Assembly: GCF_002250505.1 (NCBI RefSeq)
Contig: NZ_NJGY01000001.1
Span: 62,001-126,000 of the forward strand
Source of the DNA: Janthinobacterium sp. PC23-8
Lineage (GTDB): Bacteria; Pseudomonadota; Gammaproteobacteria; Burkholderiales; Burkholderiaceae_D
Direction of reading: 5' to 3'
Length of the DNA stretch: 64,000 nt
This document shows, in pieces, positions 10,717 to 25,786 of the stretch; the stretch's first letter is position 1; every line of letters begins with the position of its first letter. The notes below the pieces were generated by a model. It was not told where the DNA came from. It was given only the letters and a program-made list of their open reading frames with translations, and did not search any database. The position numbers and the translations under genes are program-made.

Positions 10717-13185
<2,469 letters not shown>

Positions 13186-13539: not shown

Positions 13540-14457
13540 ATGGAAATGCGTCAACTGAAATATTTTCACGCCGTGGCGCAGTCGCTCAGTTTCAGCCGGG
13601 CCGCCGACATGCTGCATGTCGCCCAGCCGGCGCTGAGCCGGCAAATCCGCCAGCTCGAGGAGATCCTGCAAATTCAGCTGTTCGACCGCGAATCGCGCCC
13701 GATCGCCCTGACTGCGGCCGGCCGCTTCTTTCACGAGCAAACGCTGCAGGTGGCGGCGCGCCTGGCCGAGATCGAGGAAGGCGCACGCCGTATCGCAGAG
13801 GCTCAGCGGCCATGGTTCGGCATCGGCTTTGTGCCGTCGGTCATGTACGGCGTGTTGCCCAACCTGATACGGCAGTTTCGGCTCGATATGCCTGACATCG
13901 AATCGGGCTTCATCGAGCTGATGACGATGGAGCAAGCGACCGCGCTGAAACTGGGCCGCATCGATATCGGTTTCGGCCGGCTGCCCATCCACGATCCCGC
14001 GATCAGCTGTGTCACCCTGGTACGCGAGCCGCTGCTGGCGGCACTGCCCGCCGGGCACCGGCTGACGCAGCGCCCGACGGTGGACCTGCCAGACCTGGCC
14101 AGGGAGCCGTTGATCGTCTATCCGGCGCGCCCGCGCCCCAGCTATGCCGACCAGGTGCTGGAACTGTTTTCAGCGCGCCATCTGCAACCGGCGCAGGTGC
14201 GCGAGGCCAACGAGATGCAAACCGCGCTGGGCCTGGTGGCGGCGGGCGTAGGCGTTGCGCTGGTACCTGCGTCAGTCCAGGGCGCACCCCGCAATGGCGT
14301 GCTGCTGCGCCCACTGTCGGAGCCGGAGCTGGTCTCGCCCGTGATCATGAACTTCCGCACCGACGACCGCTCGCCCATCCTGGCGCGTTTTCGCGAGATG
14401 GCGACCCACATGCTGCCCATGGGCTTTATTGCAGAAACGCCAGCAACAGATCGGTGA
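13540..14457 (+). CDS. LysR-family regulator, CatR/BenM-like
   Basis: The 305-residue product has the winged-helix N-terminus MEMRQLKYFHAVAQSLSFSR with the recognition part AQPALSRQIRQLEE. An effector domain follows (WFGIGFVPSVMYGVLP). The overall pattern fits the CatR/BenM group, which responds to cis,cis-muconate or aromatic acids. It is divergent from the dead dioxygenase genes and convergent with pcaD, overlapping its 3' end by 32 bases. It is intact and may still control the cat genes; this is inference. Confidence 0.88.
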   Translation: MEMRQLKYFHAVAQSLSFSRAADMLHVAQPALSRQIRQLEEILQIQLFDRESRPIALTAAGRFFHEQTLQVAARLAEIEEGARRIAEAQRPWFGIGFVPSVMYGVLPNLIRQFRLDMPDIESGFIELMTMEQATALKLGRIDIGFGRLPIHDPAISCVTLVREPLLAALPAGHRLTQRPTVDLPDLAREPLIVYPARPRPSYADQVLELFSARHLQPAQVREANEMQTALGLVAAGVGVALVPASVQGAPRNGVLLRPLSEPELVSPVIMNFRTDDRSPILARFREMATHMLPMGFIAETPATDR

Positions 14458-15250
14458 ATTGCTGCGGCGCTTCCAGATTGGACAGGTGGGCCGCCTCGAT
14501 CCCGGCATAACTGGCGTGTGCAATATGATCGAGCATGAAGCGTGCGTCCGCCGGCGTGGTCACTTCGTCGCACAGCCCGGCAATGAGCAGCGTGGGCGCG
14601 GTGATCCGCGCCAGCTGGCCGCGCAGGTCGGCCTCGGCCAGCGCCCGGCAACAGGCCGCATAGCCCGCCGGCGGACACATTCGCAGCGCCTCGACGTGGC
14701 GCGCCACCACTTGCGGAGCCTGCGCGCGGAAGGCGCCGCCAAACCAGCGGCCGGGGGCGCCATCGGCCACCGCGTCCATGCCCTCAGCTTCGACGAAATT
14801 GGCGCGGTCGGTCCAGCCCTGCGCGTTGCCGATGCGCGCGGCGCTGTTGGCCACTACCAGCGCTTGCACCCGCCCGGGCGCATGGATGGCCAGCCACAGG
14901 CCGATCAAGCCGCCCATCGAGATGCCGCAAAAGCGCACGCGGTCGATCGCCAGGGAGTCGAGCAGGCGCAAGACATCGGCGCCCAGTTGGTCCAGCGTGG
15001 CGCCGCCGGCCACGCCGTGCTGATCGGCATTGGCAGCGGCGGTGGCGCCGTGGCCGCGCGTGTCGTAACGCAGCACGCGGTAGCGCGTCGCCAGCGCCGC
15101 CGCCTGCTGCTGCCACATGTCCAGCGTGGTGCCCAGCGAGTTCGACAGCATCACCACCGGCGCGCCGGGCGGGCCTTCGAGCGTATAGGCGATCGGCTCC
15201 GGCCCCGCTGTCAGGCCATGCTGCAGGCCATGCGTGGGGGCCGCCATCAC
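14426..15250 (-). CDS. pcaD: 3-oxoadipate enol-lactonase
   Basis: This enzyme hydrolyses beta-ketoadipate enol-lactone to beta-ketoadipate, the step after muconolactone isomerase in the catechol ortho pathway. The 274-residue alpha/beta hydrolase has the nucleophile elbow FCGISMGG (Ser), the acid in LCDEVTTPADA and the catalytic His in GIEAAHLSNLEAP. It starts four bases inside the end of catA, so translation is coupled. An intact, normal-length gene within the cat cluster. Confidence 0.9.
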   Translation of the reverse strand: MMAAPTHGLQHGLTAGPEPIAYTLEGPPGAPVVMLSNSLGTTLDMWQQQAAALATRYRVLRYDTRGHGATAAANADQHGVAGGATLDQLGADVLRLLDSLAIDRVRFCGISMGGLIGLWLAIHAPGRVQALVVANSAARIGNAQGWTDRANFVEAEGMDAVADGAPGRWFGGAFRAQAPQVVARHVEALRMCPPAGYAACCRALAEADLRGQLARITAPTLLIAGLCDEVTTPADARFMLDHIAHASYAGIEAAHLSNLEAPQQFTDLLLAFLQ

Positions 15251-16158
15251 ACCGCGAAATGCGCGCGCGCGATCTGGTCGGCCGGCAGCCCTTGCTGCTC
15301 GGCGTGCAGGTCGAAGTCGAAATCGATCGCGTAGAACGGCGCGTCGACTTCATGGGCGCGCAGCGCGACAGGATCGTCGACGCGGGTCATCGGTGGCACC
15401 AGCCCGTCGCGCGTGGCGAAGGCAAAGTCGTCCCACAGGTAAGGATCGCCTTCGATATTGATCTGCGTGGTGAGCTTGCGGTGGCCGGCGGACGTGACGA
15501 AGAAATGGATGTGCGCAGGCCGGGTGCCGTGGCGGCCCAGCAATCCGAGCAACTTTTCGGTGGCGCCGCCGGGTGGCACGCTGTAGCCCACCGGCACCCG
15601 GGTGCGCAAGCGATAGCGCCCCTCGGCATCGGTGCGGATCGCGCGGCGCAGGTTGAAGGCGCTTTGACTCGGATCGAAGAACGAATAGCCGCCCAGGTGA
15701 TTGGCGTGCCACACTTCCACCACCGCGCCGGCCATCGGCGCGCCGTCGGCACCGCGCACCTGGCCCTGCATGAACAATACCTCACCCGGCTGCGGATCCT
15801 GGTCCAGCCGCGCGCTGCCTGCGGATTCTGGCGCGCCGGCCACGTACAGCGGCCCTTCGATGGTGCGCGGCGTGCCGCCGGTAACACCCTGGCGGGCCTC
15901 GGCTTCGTCCATGCGCAGGTCGAGGAAATGCTCGAAGCCGAGGCCCGCCGCGATCAGGCCATATTCGCCGGACTGGCCCGCTTCGGTCAGGTAGCTGATG
16001 GCGCTCCAGAATTCTTCCGGCTCGATGTCGAGCTCCTCGATGGTGACGAACAGGTCGCGCACGATGCGGTTGACGATGGTCTTGACGCGCGGGCTGCCCG
16101 AGGCTTTTTCAGTGCTTTCGATTTTGGCGAGCAGGGCGTCGATGGCTGGCTGGTTCAT
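15247..16158 (-). CDS. catA: Catechol 1,2-dioxygenase
   Basis: CatA cleaves catechol between the hydroxyls to cis,cis-muconate using non-haem Fe(III). The 303-residue product has the N-terminal helical dimerisation domain (about 1-100) and the catalytic beta-sandwich. Iron ligands are visible as Tyr in GPLYVAGAPESAG, Tyr in VPVGYSVPPGG, and the two His of RPAHIHFFVTSAGH. The length is standard. It lies between catC and pcaD and overlaps pcaD by four bases. Confidence 0.93.
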   Translation of the reverse strand: MNQPAIDALLAKIESTEKASGSPRVKTIVNRIVRDLFVTIEELDIEPEEFWSAISYLTEAGQSGEYGLIAAGLGFEHFLDLRMDEAEARQGVTGGTPRTIEGPLYVAGAPESAGSARLDQDPQPGEVLFMQGQVRGADGAPMAGAVVEVWHANHLGGYSFFDPSQSAFNLRRAIRTDAEGRYRLRTRVPVGYSVPPGGATEKLLGLLGRHGTRPAHIHFFVTSAGHRKLTTQINIEGDPYLWDDFAFATRDGLVPPMTRVDDPVALRAHEVDAPFYAIDFDFDLHAEQQGLPADQIARAHFAV

Positions 16159-16208
16159 ATTCTATGTCTCCAATATTGTGAGGGGAATTACAGTAACAAC
16201 GGGGGCGA

Positions 16209-16499
16209 TCAGCGATCGTCTTCATGGATCGACGACGGGTGGCGGCACAGCGCCTCGACGTCGATTTCCATGTAGGGAAATAGTGGCAAGCTCAACAGCA
16301 AATCATGGAGTTCCGCCGGCCCCGCCACATCGAAGACGCTGATGTTGGCGTAATGGCCTGCCACGCGCCACAGGTGGCGCCACTGGCCGTCGCGCTGCAA
16401 CTGCTGGGCGATGGCACGCTCGCGCGTCTTCAGTTCATCGGCCACGGCCACGGGCATATCGTGCGGCAGGCTGACGGTCATGCTGACTTTGAATAACAT
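16209..16499 (-). CDS. catC: Muconolactone delta-isomerase
   Basis: CatC converts muconolactone to 3-oxoadipate enol-lactone. At 96 residues it has exactly the usual size, and it shows the family features: MLFKVSMTVSLPHDMP at the start, ERAIAQQLQRDGQWRHLWRV in the middle, and LPLFPYMEIDVEALCRHPS near the end. It begins with ATG 16499 after an AGGAGCACC ribosome site. It lies 50 bases before catA and 180 bases after catB, all on one strand. Confidence 0.95.
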   Translation of the reverse strand: MLFKVSMTVSLPHDMPVAVADELKTRERAIAQQLQRDGQWRHLWRVAGHYANISVFDVAGPAELHDLLLSLPLFPYMEIDVEALCRHPSSIHEDDR

Positions 16500-16594
16500 G
16501 GTGCTCCTCTAAAAAAGTATTAAGTAAGTGCCAAGAAATTATTGTGAGATTATGACGAACAGAACCGGATGCGCTGCAAGGCGCCCGATGCGAC

Positions 16595-16610
16595 GCAGTG
16601 CGAGCACTGC
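16595..16610. repeat. Small perfect inverted repeat between catB and catC
   Basis: GCAGTGC-GA-GCACTGC lies in the 180-base gap between catB and catC, within a GC-rich segment (about 16563-16640) with further self-complementary pieces. No T-run follows, so it is more likely an mRNA stability or processing hairpin than a terminator. The rest of the gap shows no gene. Confidence 0.4.
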
Positions 16611-17767
16611 GAGCAGCGGGCAACGCCGCAGAGCGCCGGTTATGGAAGTCAGAATCCACAAGAATTTATGCGTACTTGCTTAGTGCCGGCGTTGCAGAAA
16701 GGCGAGCTTGTCTTCATCGAGCTCGATGCCGAGCCCGGGACCGGATGGCAGTTGCAAGGCGAAGTCGCGGTAGACCAGGGGCGTGCGCAGCACCTGTTCG
16801 GTCAGCAGCAGCGGACCGAACAGTTCAGTGCCCCAGCTCATGCCGGGCAGCGTGGCGAACAGCTGGGCCGATGCGATGGTGCCTACCGGCCCTTCGAGCA
16901 TGGTGCCGCCGTACAGCGCCACGTTGGACGCCGCCGCGATGGCGGCCACCTGCTGGGCGCCGCGCAAGCCGCCCGACTGGGTAATCTTGACGGCAAACAC
17001 GTCGACCGCGCTGGCGGCGGCCAGACGGAACGCGTCCGCCGGTCCGTGCAGCGCCTCGTCGGCCATCAAGGGCACCCGGTTCATATTGCGCAGGCGACGC
17101 ATGCCCTCGTGGTTGCCGGCGGCGATCGGTTGTTCGACCAAGTCGACCCCGGCGTGCTCGAGCATCTGCATGCCCAGCATGGCGTCGGTTTCCTCCCAGG
17201 CCTGGTTGACGTCCACGCGCACACTGGCGCGATCGCCGAGCGCGCGCTTGATGGCGGCGACATGGGCCACGTCGTCGCGCACGGTGCGGGCGCCGATTTT
17301 CAGCTTGAACACGCGGTGGCGCCGCAGGTCGAGCATTTGTTCGGCTTCGGCGATGTCTTTCGCGGTATCGCCGCTGGCCAGGGTCCAGGCCACCGGCAGG
17401 CTGTCGGCCAGGCGGCCGCCGAACAGGCTGGACAAGGGCACGCCCAGGCGGCGCGCCTGGCCGTCGAGCAGTGCGGTTTCGATCGCACACTTGGCAAAAC
17501 GGTTGCCCTGGAAGCGCGTATCGAGGTCGTGCATGCGGGCGGCGGGACTGTCGGCGTCGGCGCCGCGCAGCACCGGTGCCATATAGGTCTCGATATTGAC
17601 CTTCATGCTCTCCGGGCTTTCCTCGCCGTACGCCAGGCCGCCGATGGTGCTCGCTTCACCCCAGCCGACGATGCCGTCGCTGGCGGTGATGCGCACCAGT
17701 ACCAGGTTTTGCTGGCGCATGGTCGCCACCGACAATTGATGCGGACGTATGGTGGGAACGTCGACTA

Positions 17768-18831
17768 AGTAGTTACGCAAAATTTACTGTGAATGCTTTT
17801 CCATAATTTTCCATGATGGAACGAACTTCGTCGCGCAGGCTGTCACCCGTGAGATAACGGAAGCGGCGCCAGACGTACTTGGCTTGTTTCCAAAGGATTT
17901 CGATACGGTTCAGTTCCGGACTGTAGGGCGGCAGGTAGTATAAGTACAAGCCCTGCTGCTCCCATTGTTGGCGCTTTTCCCGCATCGGCTCACCCTTGTG
18001 AATAGCGGCGTTGTCGAGCACCACGATACGCGGCGCCGAATGCGCCTGGTTTGCCAACTCGTCCATGAACGCCATCACGTCCTCGCGTGTCGTACGCTTG
18101 TCGTGCATACGCCATATCAGCGAGCGGTCATGGCGCAACGCCCCCAGTACGTTGACTCGTTGCTCATGCGTGCCTGAACGTGCGGCGCGCGTGTGTCCCG
18201 TCGACATCCAGCCATACTGGAGCGGGGGATTCGGGCCAAAGCCCGCCTCATCGAAATACAGCAACTCGCATTGACCGGCCCGCGCCATGGCCCGCAGCGA
18301 GGCGAGCGCCCCATAGGCGCGCTCGAAGGCCGCCTCATCGCGTTGCCCTTTCAAGCTCAAGCGACAGCGCTTGTAGTGCAAACCCATCCGGCGCAAGTAG
18401 CGGCGCACCGTGCAGCGGCTCAGGCGCTCTCGTCCCCGTTCCAGCCAGCGCCGCAGCAGCGAACCCGAACTTCCGCCGTCCTCCCGTGCCAACTGTCCCA
18501 GTTCGTGCTGCCGTTGGCGCGACAAACTCGGTGGCCGACCGCTGTGCCGACCCTCATACAAGCCAACCAGTCCCAGGCGCACCCAGCATTGCCGCCAATG
18601 CTCCACGCTATTGAGATGCACATTAAACTCATCGGCAACTTGCTGTAGCGTCATCCCTTGACCCAGCAGCCGCACTCCTTGGGCGCGCCGCCGCGTACGC
18701 GCGTGCGAATGGTAAATCCCCATCTCCAGCAGCGTCCGGTTCTCTTCCTCACTCAATTCCAATCGTTTCATCGCTGCAAATCCTCCATCTCGCTTGCATG
18801 GAGGTTAGACAGTATTTTTTGCGCGATTACT
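17768..18831 (-). mobile_element. IS630-family insertion sequence, copy 1 (1064 bp) in catB
   Basis: The ends read AGTAGTTACGCAAAATTTAC and (complement) AGTAATCGCGCAAAAAATAC, about 23-base imperfect inverted repeats. TA flanks each side (17766-17767 and 18832-18833), the hallmark of IS630/mariner insertion. Removing the element and one TA rejoins catB perfectly. A near-identical second copy lies at 24396-25459. Confidence 0.93.
17773..18771 (-). CDS. IS630-family transposase (copy 1)
   Basis: The 332-residue product has an N-terminal helix-turn-helix pair (GMTLQQVADEFNVHLNSVEH) and a DDE_3 core: LLYFDEAGFGPNP, IVVLDNAAIHKG and PELNRIEILWKQAKYVWRR. The frame is intact. It differs from copy 2 at only a handful of residues (for example Ser/Pro near residue 22 and Asn/Asp in the HTH). 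Its TAA stop overlaps the TTG that can restart translation into catB. Confidence 0.93.
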   Translation of the reverse strand: MKRLELSEEENRTLLEMGIYHSHARTRRRAQGVRLLGQGMTLQQVADEFNVHLNSVEHWRQCWVRLGLVGLYEGRHSGRPPSLSRQRQHELGQLAREDGGSSGSLLRRWLERGRERLSRCTVRRYLRRMGLHYKRCRLSLKGQRDEAAFERAYGALASLRAMARAGQCELLYFDEAGFGPNPPLQYGWMSTGHTRAARSGTHEQRVNVLGALRHDRSLIWRMHDKRTTREDVMAFMDELANQAHSAPRIVVLDNAAIHKGEPMREKRQQWEQQGLYLYYLPPYSPELNRIEILWKQAKYVWRRFRYLTGDSLRDEVRSIMENYGKAFTVNFA

Positions 18832-18950
18832 TAACAGCACTTCGACGCGCTCGATCTTGATTAAGGGGTTGGTCATCTGTGCCTCGGATTGGTTTCGGCA
18901 ATCATAGAAACAGGCGCGGCGCATGTCCAAGACCGATTTTGGCAACTACC

Positions 18951-19096: not shown

Positions 19097-19758
19097 ATGT
19101 CAACCTCATTTCAGATCGACGCATCCACTTTGCTGCGCTACATGTATTTTGAGACGGCCGATATGGAAGAAGCGCGGCAGCGCATTGCGGCGGTGCTACA
19201 ACCGTATCGTTTGATCCCCGGGCCGCTCCACCCGGGGCAGTGCGCCCGCATGAACCACCTCAGGCTGCGCCACCTCGCGTTCGGATCGCTGTCCTACGGC
19301 AGGCCAATGACGGTGGAAGCGGGAGACATCACCGATTACCATCTGATCATCATCGTCCTGGCGGGTGTGGCGCAGGTGAGCGTCGGCGAGCTGCAGGCCT
19401 CGCTCGGCAAGGGGCAAGGCGTGCTGCTGACTCCGGGCACGCGCTTCGGTGCCACGTTCAGCGGCGACTGCGAACAATTCTTCCTGCGTATCGACAAGGC
19501 GGCGTTCGATGCCCATGGGGGACTGGAGCGGGGCCGCATGGCGCCGCATCAGGCGTTTGCAACTGTTCGTGCTGCGTTATGGGGACCAGGTCGAAGTCGC
19601 CGAGCCCTTTCGATGATTTCGCGCTGGTACACATGTCGCTCAAAGGCAGCGCCGAATTCGAGAGCGACGGCCAGCGCGTACGCATGCCGGAAGGGACGAT
19701 GGCGGTGGTTGAGCCGAAAAAAAATTTGCGCCTGTGCCCGTGCACGCCAGAGCAGTAA
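19097..19758 (+). pseudogene. Broken AraC-family regulator(s): two N-terminal domain pieces
   Basis: From ATG 19097 the frame encodes an AraC_binding_2-type (cupin) ligand domain: MSTSFQIDASTLLRYMYFET, ending with GDCEQFFLRIDKAAFDAHGG. After about 19545 it loses sense. A second piece in another frame follows: QLFVLRYGDQVEVAEPF, then after one extra base near 19608 it continues as DDFALVHMSLKGSAEFES and MAVVEPKKNLRL. That is again the start of an AraC-type ligand domain. Neither piece has the C-terminal DNA-binding HTH. AraC/XylS proteins control known anthranilate dioxygenase genes, so this may be the dead regulator of the island. Confidence 0.7.
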
Positions 19759-19924
19759 GCCCACAGGTTGACGTGGACAGTCTTGCCGCTGCCATCGACA
19801 GCTAAATCGCGTCGGCAGACAGCGCCATCAAATCAGTGCCGCCCCCACCTTCTGCCGATCCTCGTTTGACACCCGTACCTCCCGTGGTAATCGAGAGGAT
19901 AATTTGAAGATAGCAGTCAGGAAT

Positions 19925-20542
19925 TCATTGATGGGACGGCTGGGCGCTGACATTTCTTCGACATGCCAGCGGATCGCGCGCAGCGAACTTCGCCAGATCC
20001 TTTCCGTAACCGGAAGAATAGTTGGCCGCCTTCCAGCTGAGATAGGGTTCGTGAAGACAATAGAAGCGTTGGGCATAGCTATCGAAGTAGGCGTGAGCAG
20101 CCGTGCCGTTGCATAGTCCCGAGCTCACGCAGATCTGAAGTTCCGAAAAAAACGATTCCACTGCATTGACGTCGCCCACAATGCCACGGGTCGGCACACC
20201 ATACTTGGCAGGAATTGGGGTAAGCTCAACAACGGACATGACTAGCTGATAATACCTCTGCAGATATGCCGCCTCAGACGACGAGTCCTGTAGCTTTAGC
20301 AACTGTTCCCGATATGCATACCACGCACTGTCGATGCGGTTCGTCGACTCGAGCATTGGCCCTTCGGAAAACCGCTTGACGTAACCCAGGCTGCCTTCGA
20401 TCCGCTGTTGCTCTTCCTTGTGCAGATACTCGAAATAAGCCCACCCCGCGCCAACCATGGCCCCGCCAATGAGCAAAACCTTTGCGCAAACTTCAAGCCA
20501 ATCGACCAGCGTGACAGGAAAAAAAGGTGTCTGATCACTCAT
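19925..20542 (-). CDS. Small inner-membrane protein of the CHAT operon
   Basis: No named family is recognised. The 205-residue product starts MSDQTPFFPVTLVDWLEV. It has a single transmembrane helix at about residues 18-38 (VCAKVLLIGGAMVGAGWAYF), then a charged segment and a globular region with four cysteines (ICVSSGLC, FYCLHEPYL, DPLACRRN). ATG 20542 overlaps the upstream stop in an ATGA, so translation is coupled. It is the last gene of the operon. The single helix followed by a soluble domain suggests anchoring at the inner membrane; this is inference. Confidence 0.75.
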   Translation of the reverse strand: MSDQTPFFPVTLVDWLEVCAKVLLIGGAMVGAGWAYFEYLHKEEQQRIEGSLGYVKRFSEGPMLESTNRIDSAWYAYREQLLKLQDSSSEAAYLQRYYQLVMSVVELTPIPAKYGVPTRGIVGDVNAVESFFSELQICVSSGLCNGTAAHAYFDSYAQRFYCLHEPYLSWKAANYSSGYGKDLAKFAARDPLACRRNVSAQPSHQ

Positions 20543-20961
20543 TCTTTGCACACCAACGTATTAAGCACAACGGGATTCGTATCAAGGAAGGCGGGTGACT
20601 GCGTACTCTTGCGCCTGATACAACGCAACAATGCCTTGCTCACCTTGATAGGAGGGTTGCTATTGACCGCAGTTCCTCCAGGCCCGGGCACGACTGGCAG
20701 ACTGTTGGCACTACTTCTTGTCGTGGCGTCATCGGGAAGACAAAGGTCAAAGTAGAAGAGCACTGGGTCGCCCTTGTCACGCAACAACAATTCTGCATTG
20801 TCCGCAAGACAATGCGCTTCGCTCGAGCTGAGGTTCATTGCTGGCACCGTCGGGATCCTTTTGACCGCCCAGGCCGCACTGGCGACGAGGCAGAATATAG
20901 CGCCAAACGCTTTTATGCAGAGTTGTGATTGCGAAAAGCAACTACTACTGGCGAATTTCAT
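20539..20961 (-). CDS. Small secreted protein of the CHAT operon
   Basis: The 140-residue product has a signal peptide (MKFASSSCFSQSQLCIKAFG, hydrophobic core IFCLVASAAWA with cleavage likely after AWA). The mature part is cysteine-containing (AHCLADN, FDLCLPD, LLRCIRR, LVCKE). No family is recognised. The ATG lies inside the last codons of the CHAT gene (17-base overlap) and has a GGGAGAGA ribosome site, so it is translated with it. Four mature cysteines fit a disulfide-bonded periplasmic or secreted protein. Confidence 0.75.
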   Translation of the reverse strand: MKFASSSCFSQSQLCIKAFGAIFCLVASAAWAVKRIPTVPAMNLSSSEAHCLADNAELLLRDKGDPVLFYFDLCLPDDATTRSSANSLPVVPGPGGTAVNSNPPIKVSKALLRCIRRKSTQSPAFLDTNPVVLNTLVCKE

Positions 20962-23900
20962 GAAGGTCTCTCCCTGAATAAAAAAAACCCGCCCATTGCG
21001 TAGGGTCCTTGAAGGGCTGCCAGTGCGGCTGGTGCTCAACACGCCATACCAGCGCGGTAAGCTCAGCCTTCGATACGGAATTCCGGGCCAACCCCAAGAG
21101 ACGCCGGGCTGCCTTCAGGAGCTCCTCACCTCGGGCATCTCGAAGCCATAGTTGCGCCTCGCGCAGCGCATCTGGAACAGGGCGATTTCGGACAATCTTT
21201 GCTTCCATCAGTCGATCGACAAGGAAAAGAGTCGCTCTATCGTCGACCGGCCACAGCGTCGAAACCACCCCTTGGGAACCGAGGCCCAAAAAGGCCGCAG
21301 GAAGTCCTTGGAATTCGTTGGCGATGTCGTATATCTGGATCAAACCAGACTCGCAGGCAGACAGGATCGCCAGGTCTGGGCCCGTGTCCCCCACAGTCGT
21401 TTGAAGATCGGCAACAGTCAAGCGTTGCTTATTAGAAAACAACAAGTGGGACTGTGTGGGATGCTCGCGATTAAAGCTCGCATGACCGGCAAAATGGAAC
21501 ACCTGTGCGCGCGGAAGAGCCTGCTTTACATTTGCGGAAGTCGCCTGTCCGCCCGTAAATAACCTGGCTCTCGAGTACGGCAACCTCGAGAACGTACTGC
21601 GTGCCTCCACATCAGCGAATGGCAATGGGGATTTGCTGGTTGGATTACCCACAGCGACCAGCGCAAGATCTTTTCGCTGGCGAGCTTTGGGTGTTTCCAG
21701 CGGCTGGCGAAGCATTAGGAGGCTTGGGGCATACATCACTGGCATATGCTCGAACAGTGGCTTGCCATCCGCCATCAAGGCAACATGCATCGGCAAGATC
21801 GCGAGCTCACCCTGGGTGATCCACGCTACCGAAATTGGCGAGATGCCCTTGGCCGCCAACGCAGCGAACACTGGCTGGACGAGCCTCATTCCCAGCCATG
21901 CCTGGCTCTCGCGAAGTTTTCCATTCCAAGACTGCCGGATCGATTTGTCCAAGTCTCCATCGCGAACAAAATCCTGGTAAGTCCCGAGCCAGCCCCCCAT
22001 GGAATCAGTGACTTGCCGCTCCCCTTGCATGAAGGCAACGACCGTGTTCGCATTTAGGCCGTCCAAAAACACCTCCATTACAACCCAGCCGTGAGGCGAC
22101 TGGAATAGCGAGAACACCACTCCACCCTGCGTGGTGACGATTGGCACCAGCACCAGCCTACCGACCGCCGCATGGATATCGTCAAAGCCGCGGCGCGGTA
22201 CGATATTCTCTGCCAGATCCTTCAGCCCAAGGCGACGTTTTAGCAGGCGAGTCTTGCCCTGTTCCGCAATCCAGAGGCCCTCCTCCGCCCTGCCTTGCTT
22301 CGCCAGCGCGTAAGCGGCCCGCTCGAACCAGCGTTTGGATTGGCCAGCCGCCGTCAACAGGACCTCACGCTGCTCGATCATTTCAAACATGCCGCGATGG
22401 CGCTGCGCGACCGACGTGTACAGCTCGGCCGCTTGTTGCCAGTTCGCGTTCTCAAACTCGAGGTTCGCGAGATTTACCAGGGTATCGGCATGCTCCTGGG
22501 GCATTGCCGCCTCGGTCCGTACCAGAAGTGCCTGCTGATAAGCATCGAACGCGCATTGATACAGGTCCGGCCGGCTCTTGGCATTACAGACGTTACCGAG
22601 GTTATTCTGCATGCTGGCCCAGACCGACGGGGACGCTCGTCGATCAGTCAGCGCGATGGCGGCACGGTATGCAACGACTGCCTGATCCAGGGCCTTCACG
22701 TCCCCAGCCGCAAACCGGTATCGGAGATACTCGCCTCGGTCCGCCTGCAGCAGTGCTCGCTGCGCTGCTGGAAGATGGGTGGCCCGTTCATCGGCCTTCG
22801 CAAGCAGCGCGCCAGCGGCGTCCAGCTGCTCCGCGCGTCCCCACGATGCCCAAGTGAGCCGGACTGATGCCTGAATCGCAAGCGGCTTCACCGTTTCCGT
22901 GAATCGCTTCCTTTCTTCGAGCCACGCGATGGTCTCGGTCAGGATGTCATCCGCGTCTTGGAGATTGGTTTCCTCCGCCACCTTCGTCGCCGCCAGTGCC
23001 ATGGCGAGGTTGACCGAGCTACGTATCCATAGTACTTGCTCTTCCTGCTTCTTCGGGTCGAGTTGGGTTCTGGCGAGCTGGAACCATTTCACGGCCTTCA
23101 GCATATTCTGGTTGTGCTCACCAACCTGGCGTGCCATGAATGCACTGCCGAGGTTACTTGCAGCCCCTACATAGGCATCCCGGTCACGACGTGGGCTCAG
23201 CTCCTTGAGTACCCGCTTGAGAATCGCAATTGCCATTTCAAGGTTCTCACTGAAACGTGTTCCTTCCCCTTGAACATAGGCCATCGCCAAGTTCACTTGC
23301 GTGCGCACCCTATCGTCCTTGCTGCCCAACTTGCGATACAGCTCAATCGCTTCTTCGAAGGCACTGACCGCCGGGTCGAGATCATGGGCTCGTCCGCCCC
23401 CATCTCGGGAACCAAATGTGACCAGCAACCTGGCCTTTGTCTCGAGGGCATTTGCCCGTTCCTGCGTCTGCTCGCGGCCGGCTTCCGTGCCAAGGTAACG
23501 ATCTAGCGCCTTGATCGCAGCAACTCGCGCGCTCGGGTCACCACGGTCAAAAATGGTCGCATTGAGTTCGGCAAGCACTTTGTAGAATTCAGCGTCTGCG
23601 CGTCCCACCCGAGATGTACCTTGCGACTCCGTCAAGAGGCTGTCCAAGCCGCGCCGAATTTCAAGAAGGGCATCGATGTCTTGGGCATCGTACATCCGGA
23701 GTCGGACTACGGCGAGACGCGTCTTGAACCAAAGTTCTTTATCGTCTGTCGAACGCAGCAACTCGGCCGACTGGGCCGCGTATTCTATTGCTCGCCGTAT
23801 GTCCGCAGGCCCAATGCCAGTGGTACCCGTATAAAATAGAGACAACTCATACGCTGCTGCCGCCGCGACCATCGGGTACTCCGAGATGTTCGGGCAAGAA

Positions 23901-24109
23901 AGCCCGGCGGAAAGAGCAGACACACGCCGACGCTGGGCCGAGGGCTGCAAGGGCCGCTCGCCGACCACCTTTTTCAGTTGCATATATGAACAGGTATCGG
24001 ACGCCACTGCGGCTTTGGCGGCACCGCCAAGCGTAACCACGAGCTGCAGCACCAAGACGCAGGCAGCCCAAAGAATGGTAGAACAAAACTTCGCCTTTTT
24101 CTTTCTCAT
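20945..24109 (-). CDS. Secreted TPR-CHAT domain protein (caspase-like peptidase)
   Basis: CHAT proteins are cysteine peptidases of the caspase/separase clan. The 1054-residue product has a basic N-terminus and hydrophobic signal (WAACVLVLQLVVTLGG, cleavage near AKA). A long helical repeat region of TPR type follows, at about residues 70-620 (for example ALVNLANLEFENANWQQAAE-like units and AEEGLWIAEQGKTRLLKRRL). The CHAT domain is at about 700-1045. The catalytic pair is visible: His876 in HFAGHASF and Cys919 in LSACESG, followed by GLGSQGVVSTLWPVDD. The C-terminus QWAGFFYSG is typical of CHAT. It overlaps genes on both sides. The partner and target are unknown; export makes it unlike the cytoplasmic CHAT proteases of CRISPR and gasdermin systems. 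Confidence 0.9.
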   Translation of the reverse strand: MRKKKAKFCSTILWAACVLVLQLVVTLGGAAKAAVASDTCSYMQLKKVVGERPLQPSAQRRRVSALSAGLSCPNISEYPMVAAAAAYELSLFYTGTTGIGPADIRRAIEYAAQSAELLRSTDDKELWFKTRLAVVRLRMYDAQDIDALLEIRRGLDSLLTESQGTSRVGRADAEFYKVLAELNATIFDRGDPSARVAAIKALDRYLGTEAGREQTQERANALETKARLLVTFGSRDGGGRAHDLDPAVSAFEEAIELYRKLGSKDDRVRTQVNLAMAYVQGEGTRFSENLEMAIAILKRVLKELSPRRDRDAYVGAASNLGSAFMARQVGEHNQNMLKAVKWFQLARTQLDPKKQEEQVLWIRSSVNLAMALAATKVAEETNLQDADDILTETIAWLEERKRFTETVKPLAIQASVRLTWASWGRAEQLDAAGALLAKADERATHLPAAQRALLQADRGEYLRYRFAAGDVKALDQAVVAYRAAIALTDRRASPSVWASMQNNLGNVCNAKSRPDLYQCAFDAYQQALLVRTEAAMPQEHADTLVNLANLEFENANWQQAAELYTSVAQRHRGMFEMIEQREVLLTAAGQSKRWFERAAYALAKQGRAEEGLWIAEQGKTRLLKRRLGLKDLAENIVPRRGFDDIHAAVGRLVLVPIVTTQGGVVFSLFQSPHGWVVMEVFLDGLNANTVVAFMQGERQVTDSMGGWLGTYQDFVRDGDLDKSIRQSWNGKLRESQAWLGMRLVQPVFAALAAKGISPISVAWITQGELAILPMHVALMADGKPLFEHMPVMYAPSLLMLRQPLETPKARQRKDLALVAVGNPTSKSPLPFADVEARSTFSRLPYSRARLFTGGQATSANVKQALPRAQVFHFAGHASFNREHPTQSHLLFSNKQRLTVADLQTTVGDTGPDLAILSACESGLIQIYDIANEFQGLPAAFLGLGSQGVVSTLWPVDDRATLFLVDRLMEAKIVRNRPVPDALREAQLWLRDARGEELLKAARRLLGLARNSVSKAELTALVWRVEHQPHWQPFKDPTQWAGFFYSGRDLHEIRQ

Positions 24110-24395
24110 TGCCAGCCCTCAGCCTCGAATTCATAGCAGTAAGCAAAAGGAAAAGGAAAATCAGTCTTCCGGTTATCCAAAATCCGCACGTAAAACTTCA
24201 ACGATTCTATCGCCTCTTCGGCGAAAGAAACTTGATCACGATCAGACGACAAAACAAGGTAAGCGGGCGCAAGCATCCAGCCGTCCTGAACGCTGTATTG
24301 CAGCACCGAGGTCCACGACTGATGAGAGAGAGAAAAAGAAAAGGCGCCCGCTGCCAGAGACAGGGATGCCGTAAGACTGCGGGTCAGGTCAGCTA
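24106..24395 (-). CDS. First gene of CHAT operon, 5' end at IS630 junction
   Basis: The open frame reads from the IS junction to TGA 24106 and shares an ATGA with the CHAT gene, so it is the upstream member of the same operon. Visible sequence includes LTRSLTASLSLAAGAFSFSL, then SVLQYSVQDGWMLAPAYLVL and DQVSFAEEAIESLKFYVRIL, ending FEAEGWQ. No family is recognised. No good ATG start remains; a TTG inside the IS (24408) gives MRNYL fused in frame. Either the true start lies at a non-ATG codon just after the junction or the 5' end was lost. Confidence 0.5.
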
Positions 24396-25459
24396 AGTAG
24401 TTACGCAAAATTTACTGTGAATGCTTTTCCATAATTTTCCATGATGGAACGAACTTCGTCGCGCAGGCTGTCACCCGTGAGATAACGGAAGCGGCGCCAG
24501 ACGTACTTGGCTTGTTTCCACAGGATTTCGATACGGTTCAGTTCCGGACTGTAGGGCGGCAGGTAGTATAAGTACAAGCCCTGCTGCTCCCATTGTTGGC
24601 GCTTTTCCCGCATCGGCTCACCCTTGTGAATAGCGGCGTTGTCGAGCACCACGATACGCGGCGCCGAATGCGCCTGGTTGGCTAACTCGTCCAGGAACGC
24701 CATCACGTCCTCGCGTGTCGTGCGCTTGTCGTGCATACGCCATATCAGCGAGCGGTCATGGCGCAACGCCCCCAGTACGTTGACTCGTTGCTCATGCGTG
24801 CCTGAACGTGCGGCGCGCGTGTGTCGCGTCGACATCCAGCCATACTGGAGCGGGGGATTCGGGCCAAAGCCCGCCTCATCGAAATACAGCAACTCGCATT
24901 GACCGGCCCGCGCCATGGCCCGCAGCGAGGCGAGCGCCCCATAGGCGCGCTCGAAGGCCGCCTCATCGCGTTGCCCTTTCAAGCTCAAGCGACAGCGCTT
25001 GTAGTGCAAACCCATCCGGCGCAAGTAGCGGCGCACCGTGCAGCGGCTCAGGCGCTCTCGTCCCCGTTCCAGCCAGCGCCGCAGCAGCGAACCCGAACTT
25101 CCGCCTTCCTCCCGTGCCAACTGTCCCAGTTCGTGCTGCCGCTGGCGCGACAAACTCGGTGGCCGACCGCTGTGCCGACCCTCATACAAGCCAACCAGTC
25201 CCAGGCGCACCCAGCATTGCCGCCAATGCTCCACGCTATTGAGATGCACATCAAACTCATCGGCAACTTGCTGTAACGTCATCCCTTGGCCCAGCAGCCG
25301 CACTCCTTGGGCGCGCCGCCGCGTACGTGCGTGCGGATGATAAATCCCCATCTCCAGCAGCGTCCGGTTTTCTTCCTCGCTCAATTCCAGTCGTTTCATC
25401 CCTGAAAATCCTCCATCCTGATTCCATGGAAGTTAGACAGTATTTTTTGAGCGATTACT
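24396..25459 (-). mobile_element. IS630-family insertion sequence, copy 2 (1064 bp)
   Basis: Same ends and length as copy 1, flanked by TA (24394-24395 and 25460-25461). The empty site would read AGCTAGCT, a palindrome around the TA. It separates a porin remnant from the CHAT operon and removes any original promoter from directly in front of that operon. Nucleotide differences from copy 1 are few and scattered. Confidence 0.93.
24401..25399 (-). CDS. IS630-family transposase (copy 2)
   Basis: An intact 332-residue DDE transposase, nearly identical to copy 1, with the same catalytic segments (YFDEAGFGPNP, VVLDNAAIHKG, LNRIEILWKQAK). About five residues differ (for example STRHTRAARS here versus STGHTRAARS). 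The two copies are therefore related but not fresh duplicates of each other. Confidence 0.93.
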   Translation of the reverse strand: MKRLELSEEENRTLLEMGIYHPHARTRRRAQGVRLLGQGMTLQQVADEFDVHLNSVEHWRQCWVRLGLVGLYEGRHSGRPPSLSRQRQHELGQLAREEGGSSGSLLRRWLERGRERLSRCTVRRYLRRMGLHYKRCRLSLKGQRDEAAFERAYGALASLRAMARAGQCELLYFDEAGFGPNPPLQYGWMSTRHTRAARSGTHEQRVNVLGALRHDRSLIWRMHDKRTTREDVMAFLDELANQAHSAPRIVVLDNAAIHKGEPMREKRQQWEQQGLYLYYLPPYSPELNRIEILWKQAKYVWRRFRYLTGDSLRDEVRSIMENYGKAFTVNFA

Positions 25460-25467
25460 TAGCTGAA

Positions 25468-25786
25468 TTAGAAAGCGTGGCGCACGCCGCCCCGCAACGT
25501 ACAGGCTGACATATTTGATCACGGGACCGAAACGCTGCTGCGACAGCGACTCGAACATGAACTCGTACTGGTTGCCGGCGGTCAGCGTGCCCCAGTCGCC
25601 GGACAGACCGGCATAGGCCTGGCGTCCGAAAAAGTTGCCGACCTGGGCGCCGGTGTCGAGCTGGAACCGGCTTTCCAGCATGAAGATCGCCTTGTTGCCG
25701 ATGCCGAGGTCTTCGCTGCCCCTGAAACGCAACAGATTGGGCGACTGAATGCCGGTGTCGACCAGCTTCGGCAGTGCCGCAGGCAA
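25468..25786 (-). pseudogene. Porin remnant with internal deletion
   Basis: A Burkholderia-type trimeric porin fragment. It contains KLVDTGIQSPNLLRFRGSED, then NKAIFMLESRFQLDTGAQVG, FFGRQAYAGLSGDWGTLTAG and NQYEFMFES, the conserved N-terminal barrel strands. The signal peptide and first strand are missing. After PVIKYVSLY the frame shifts, and only the last strand remains in another frame: LRGGVRHAF followed by TAA (25468-25470), with the terminal Phe typical of outer-membrane barrels. More than two thirds of the gene is gone. Confidence 0.82.

Follow-up and report, generated by a model that had tools for sequence, protein, structure and literature searches.

The window analysed here is a stretch of 64,000 nucleotides from Janthinobacterium sp. 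PC23-8 (NZ_NJGY01000001.1), and on its minus strand three genes lie in overlapping order between positions 19925 and 24109. The first (20945-24109) encodes a 1054-aa TPR-CHAT protein with a signal-like N-terminus (about residues 1-34). Its CHAT domain (residues 737-1046; 20972-21901) is unambiguous, scoring 161.3 bits with Pfam PF12770 against a curated cut-off of 24, whereas the TPR/Sel1 matches are weak. The catalytic residues His876 (codon 21482-21484) and Cys919 (codon 21353-21355) were read from the DNA; they sit in the motifs HFAGHA and LSACES. The second gene (20539-20961) encodes a small exported cysteine protein of 140 aa, and the third (19925-20542) a membrane protein of 205 aa with a single hydrophobic helix. 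The stop of the CHAT gene and the start of the 140-aa gene overlap by 17 bases (20945-20961), and the 140-aa stop overlaps the 205-aa start by ATGA (20539-20542). The N-termini of both the 1054-aa and the 140-aa proteins look like Sec signal peptides.

An earlier note on this locus had described a translationally coupled operon of four genes around an exported TPR-CHAT protease, and the open reading frames, lengths, strand, overlaps and catalytic residues it reported are confirmed. The first of its four genes, which it had recognized as truncated by an insertion sequence (IS), is however only a C-terminal remnant (24106-24392, minus strand). It overlaps the CHAT gene by ATGA (24106-24109), but comparison of two IS630-like copies places the IS end at 24393, so that only 24106-24392 is its own. 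This remnant has no match in Pfam or among plasmids, and no annotated gene stands in that position upstream of the related CHAT genes of Methylobacterium; its membership of the system is thus unsupported. The IS630-like element that ends the operon upstream occupies 24393-25461 (minus strand; transposase ORF 24401-25399), and a second copy, 98% identical, lies on the other side of the segment at 17765-18833 (minus strand). Third-position GC of the trio is 0.59-0.65, whereas of nine other window genes measured, IS apart, eight have 0.79-0.85 and one 0.69. Among 61 genomes in the search of relatives, 27 have some CHAT match, but only the window's own has a full-length one, and at E<=1e-30 the window's own was the only one of 399 genomes in the order. 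The trio was therefore probably acquired. No match for the CHAT protein was found in phage records.

Recurrence of the gene set with CHAT and C14 proteases

Two closely related Methylobacterium plasmids encode a CHAT protein 35% identical to that of the window over its length, with the catalytic His and Cys conserved, followed directly downstream by homologs of both small proteins (48% identity for the membrane protein). These are the only 2 of 89 matching plasmid records in which the match covers at least 80% of the query, and they amount to only one independent full-length homolog. The two small genes thus accompany both full-length CHAT homologs found, as expected under the earlier note, although on few cases. 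In Methylobacterium oryzae a fused 337-aa protein is seen, but we did not rely on it as evidence for a natural fusion, because the closely related M. phyllosphaerae plasmid has two separate genes. More distant TPR-CHAT relatives, matching only residues from about 190-250 on (a Bradyrhizobium plasmid, the next record, covering 63%, and many cyanobacteria), lack both partners. The association is therefore with this exported subgroup and not with TPR-CHAT proteins at large.

The unit is, moreover, wider than CHAT. The 205-aa protein also finds, at 24% identity, the third gene of a Rhizobium plasmid set whose first gene is a caspase (C14) protein and whose second is a small exported cysteine protein. 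The annotated start of the Rhizobium caspase omits an in-frame signal-like N-terminus, and the protein has peptidoglycan-binding, PAN and C14 domains. On plasmids, 13 Rhizobium records hold both partners, with the small gene overlapping an annotated caspase gene. Of 7 Cereibacter plasmid records with the membrane protein, the one inspected (pC) has the pair followed by an exported caspase, cut by the record end there but complete in a genome (G1194).

We searched genomes with successive profiles of the membrane protein, which hit 7 of 398 genomes of a phylum (the window's own included), 3 of 385 of a class, 4 of 198 and 16 of 121 of two families, and 14 of 219 of an order, the samples overlapping in some genomes. 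Together with the window and plasmid loci, 45 loci were read with our own profiles, of which we dropped two, L151 (same proteins as locus L103) and L141 (contig end). Of the remaining 43 loci, 32 have the small gene next to the membrane gene (31 by profile, L113 by eye), and 24 of these 32 also have an adjacent protease, 20 C14 and 4 CHAT (in L152 on the opposite strand), against 0 of the other 11 (Fisher p 1.3e-5). Taking one of each of seven close pairs leaves 36 loci, with 20 of 27 against 0 of 9 (p 1.2e-4). All but three loci were found through the membrane protein, so that its own presence is by selection, but the counts for the other two genes are not. Pfam C14 missed the caspases of L138 and L139 at E<=0.001; these were counted as C14 on our own profile and on the GHG/DACH motifs. 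Seven loci add a second C14 protein downstream, and WD40 repeats were confirmed by Pfam in the two that we scanned. C14 genes number 1-18 per genome in 19 of 21 genomes searched and none in 2, so adjacency is not a matter of abundance; genomes G1442 and G1290 each have one C14 gene found, and it is the adjacent one. Nevertheless, 8 of the 32 small-protein loci have no protease in the stretch examined, and in genomes G660 and G1193 no C14 or CHAT was found genome-wide, although that genome search does miss some C14. The pair can thus exist without a protease.

As a control, we used 90 loci around generic CHAT relatives (1.15 Mb), comprising 60 loci, mostly cyanobacterial TPR-CHATs, from a scan of genome contigs with the CHAT alignment, and loci L002-L030 and L033. 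These gave 0 hits to either partner profile, although 29 of them are under 4 kb, so that a partner further off would be missed. Export was assessed with a single heuristic rule, by which 28 of 31 protease ORFs of the group (L103/L151 and other near copies included) have a signal-like N-terminus, against 1 of 46 generic CHAT ORFs. Of the 71 CHAT-bearing control loci, 25 whose ORF was open at its start were dropped, and for one ORF (L140:10272-15008) starts were tried over 900 codons instead of 130. Of the three misses, L104 and one of L143 have an RR motif by eye. By the same rule, 23 of 26 small proteins and 6 of 31 membrane proteins are called signal-like. Export of the protease and one partner, as the earlier note had suggested, is thus supported; its statement that known CHAT systems act in the cytoplasm was tested only through this control.

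The catalytic domain is exchangeable: locus L168 carries peptidoglycan-binding, PAN and CHAT domains, whereas Rhizobium and locus L148 carry the same front domains with C14. In a quick tree of 29 membrane proteins (six near copies or remote ones left out, and L031, L151 and L172-L179 not put in), the window and Methylobacterium fall with protease-free rows (branch value 99) and L168 among the C14 rows (branch value 99). A single clade of the three CHAT rows is rejected (p-AU 0.024), but the tree has many long branches and is provisional.

The two partner proteins

The small protein of the window consists of two copies of a C-x23/24-C unit (Cys51/Cys74, Cys114/Cys138). Its four core cysteines are present in 25 of 26 aligned members (that of L150 lacks the second), in two C-x20-29-C halves, mostly C-x23-C, that align with each other (hhalign E 1.6e-6; 0 of 200 column shuffles as high); the protein is a tandem duplication of this unit. 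The structural model shows two strand-helix-strand units and a loose linker (mean pLDDT 71.9). The membrane protein is predicted to be all helical, its membrane helix forming the start of a 48-residue helix (residues 12-59) that runs on into the domain (mean pLDDT 85.8); the charge rule left its topology undecided. Two cysteines and one Phe are invariant in 29 of 29 rows of its alignment; the cysteines, Cys138-x5-Cys144 in the window (20111-20131), are absent from the remote relative in L179. Small and membrane genes overlap in 25 of 30 loci measured, by exactly 4 bases in 15, although some starts were chosen by us.

The earlier note held that the small proteins match no known family. Neither window partner matches a Pfam family at E<=10, but 21 of 26 members of the membrane-protein alignment match DUF4760 (PF15956) at E<=0.1, and the Rhizobium and L104 proteins exceed the curated cut-off (P0005 34.2 and L104 32.2 against 25). 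The function of DUF4760 is unknown; one paper mentions it, in an unrelated context, and the main texts of PMC7159879 and PMC8195603 do not hold the word. Models of both partners gave no PDB match at E<=0.001, although that of the small protein is only moderately confident.

The linker between the two units of the small protein holds an Arg at one aligned column in 20 of 22 protease-linked members (Arg82 in the window, codon 20716-20718), with Lys in one and Gln next to Arg in one, in a region of low model confidence. A loose motif around it occurs in 22 of 22 protease-linked proteins, against 5.8 expected from shuffles (maximum 14), and in 0 of 4 protease-free ones. This motif was, however, defined after looking, and on five further proteins the contrast did not hold cleanly: the one protease-linked protein (L168) has TRGLP but misses the motif, and of four without a protease, L171 matches it and L170 matches the loose form. 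Pooled, it is 22 of 23 against 2 of 8, but related sequences are not independent. We therefore keep the Arg only as a candidate cleavage site.

Proposed function and relation to known systems

In bacterial gasdermin operons, a constant partner gene likewise lies beside an exchangeable C14 or CHAT protease (PMC9612521). The partners here show no match to gasdermins, the protease and small protein carry signal-like N-termini, and the partner set is a small cysteine protein plus a one-helix DUF4760-like protein. Craspase (type III-E CRISPR, Csx29 TPR-CHAT with Csx30) shares the succession of TPR and CHAT, and four chains named CHAT domain protein are the only PDB sequence matches at E<=0.001. The window protein, however, scores 42.1 against a cut-off of 300 for the NCBIfam Csx29 family, the match is limited to the CHAT part, and it has a signal-like N-terminus and other partners. 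Two proteins tested against the EACC1-associated caspase family (NF047832) fell below its cut-off of 140 (Rhizobium caspase 100.2, L104 25.8). Prokaryotic metacaspases, some with N-terminal helices that may be signal peptides, occur in operons, including multi-metacaspase operons in four groups, Alphaproteobacteria among them, and a conserved Rhizobium operon with protease and protease-inhibition annotation (PMC3501461). No set with these two partners is described in the parts of that paper considered, although it may be listed without a name in the operon table, which was not among them, and no description was found in the other literature searched.

We suggest, tentatively, that the three genes encode an envelope module, and the set looks like an undescribed protease-controlled system of the bacterial surface. 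By comparison, it comprises a peptidase of the caspase fold, either CHAT or C14, with a signal-like N-terminus, the His/Cys motifs and different front parts (TPR; peptidoglycan-binding plus PAN; none recognized), a small protein of two C-x23-C units with a signal-like N-terminus, and a one-helix membrane protein with a helical domain and a conserved C-x5-C. Overlap and co-inheritance argue that the small and membrane proteins act together, and intact dyads argue for an active protease. We infer that the front part senses something in the envelope and switches on the peptidase, which then cuts the small protein, the probable substrate, in the linker between its two units, in most lineages after a conserved Arg/Lys. 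The cut would change how the small protein binds the membrane protein, an anchor or transducer, which passes the signal across the inner membrane or damages it. The module would work like the gasdermin operons, but in the envelope and with unrelated partners. Orthocaspases cleave after basic residues (PMC6426788), and gasdermins are cleaved after Leu or Arg by neighboring caspase-like proteases (PMC9612521); Craspase CHATs, however, cut after Leu, Met or Ala (PMC11106740), so an Arg site for the window's CHAT is a guess. The mobile, patchy distribution, with plasmids in Methylobacterium, Rhizobium and Cereibacter and low GC3 and flanking ISs in the window, suggests an accessory, conflict-type role rather than housekeeping.

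If gasdermin and Craspase are, as they appear to be, cytoplasmic switches of defense, a recurrent set with export signals, constant partners of unknown function and, in some members, a front part matching peptidoglycan-binding domains would put caspase-type control into the envelope. It would give two orphan families, the duplicated cysteine protein and the DUF4760-like membrane proteins, a testable role, and it offers natural catalytic-domain swaps on one scaffold. A more speculative and rather unlikely, though not excluded, reading is a caspase-controlled signaling or killing device outside the cytoplasm, in which a sensor-protease with peptidoglycan-binding, PAN or TPR front part detects cell-wall damage or an intruder, cuts a two-unit disulfide messenger in the periplasm and so triggers the one-helix membrane protein, with lineages swapping caspase and CHAT catalytic domains on the same chassis.

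The main alternative, which we consider less likely, is that the small protein is an inhibitor or folding partner of the protease and the membrane protein its anchor, the real substrates lying elsewhere in the envelope. Small exported disulfide proteins may often be inhibitors, the overlap of small and membrane genes is as expected of a complex, and the lineages that keep the pair without a protease fit a pair with its own binding role. On the other hand, the pair without any protease is hard to explain for a pure inhibitor/anchor, and the conserved Arg lies in a linker of low model confidence, more like a cut site, although inhibitors can also present a basic residue. An antiphage system in the narrow sense is similarly doubtful. 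It is favored by the analogy to gasdermin and Craspase, by the mobile distribution and by Hachiman genes 2-6 kb from the trio in Methylobacterium pMOC1, the only defense neighbor seen, although other neighborhoods were not searched systematically. Neither window partner, nor the two relatives of the membrane protein scanned, matches PADLOC, and the proteases match only through the catalytic part (best BovA scores 26 and 37 bits, caspase 52 and 55 bits). An ordinary envelope proteolysis or quality-control operon without a conflict or signaling role appears less likely still. In one family (f91), the membrane protein occurs in 15 of 109 genera sampled, in six of those genomes on contigs over 1 Mb, and in genomes G553 and G691 the set lies, by eye, beside an apparent polA homolog; against this stand the patchy distribution of the membrane protein in the phylum and class samples and of the full-length CHAT in the order, the plasmid-borne sets in three genera, and the flanking ISs and low GC3 of the trio in the window. 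Finally, although the segment is bounded by IS copies and broken genes, chance neighborhood is refuted by the co-occurrence counts, by the same gene order in Methylobacterium at 35% (CHAT) and 48% (membrane protein) identity, and by equivalent sets in many other loci.

Genes at the borders of the inserted segment

At positions 19097-19771 (+) we observed a truncated AraC-type regulator, consisting of the ligand-binding domain only (PF14525), which runs into an unrelated tail; this is likely a broken gene at the edge of the inserted segment. A fragment at 25433-25786 (-), which by visual inspection looks like a Gram-negative porin, is cut at the other end of the IS630-like element. The genes at 14426-17765 (-) look, also by visual inspection, like an aromatic (catechol/muconate) degradation cluster, and the cycloisomerase-like ORF begins at the edge of the second IS copy.

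The partner genes in Methylobacterium

In Methylobacterium oryzae, the two partner genes form one open frame of 337 aa (positions 10931-11944 of locus L031, the stretch read around the Methylobacterium trio), whereas M. phyllosphaerae has two genes, a discrepancy that reflects either a frameshift or a sequencing difference. Hachiman genes (annotated HamA and a helicase) are found in the same locus (L031:14141-18356), 2-6 kb from the Methylobacterium trio, with VapBC genes and an integrase nearer.

Variation among the membrane-protein and C14 loci

Another subgroup of the one-helix proteins, found in four of the loci read (L172, L174, L175 and L177, near 8.7-10.1 kb), follows a tiny ORF with a signal-like start and a tail holding VCCGGPCC, a different small cysteine partner for the same membrane family. 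Membrane-protein relatives without the duplicated cysteine protein are also preceded by a different small ORF with a signal-like stretch in two further loci (L108:6504-6866 and L114:6497-6937). We additionally observed divergent C14-like proteins with the GHG motif (L142:4937-7327 and L140:10275-15050 (+)), for which the expected DxC motif was not found; these may represent an inactive caspase beside the system. Finally, one genome (G1385, the source of loci L141 and L142) has two copies of the membrane protein.
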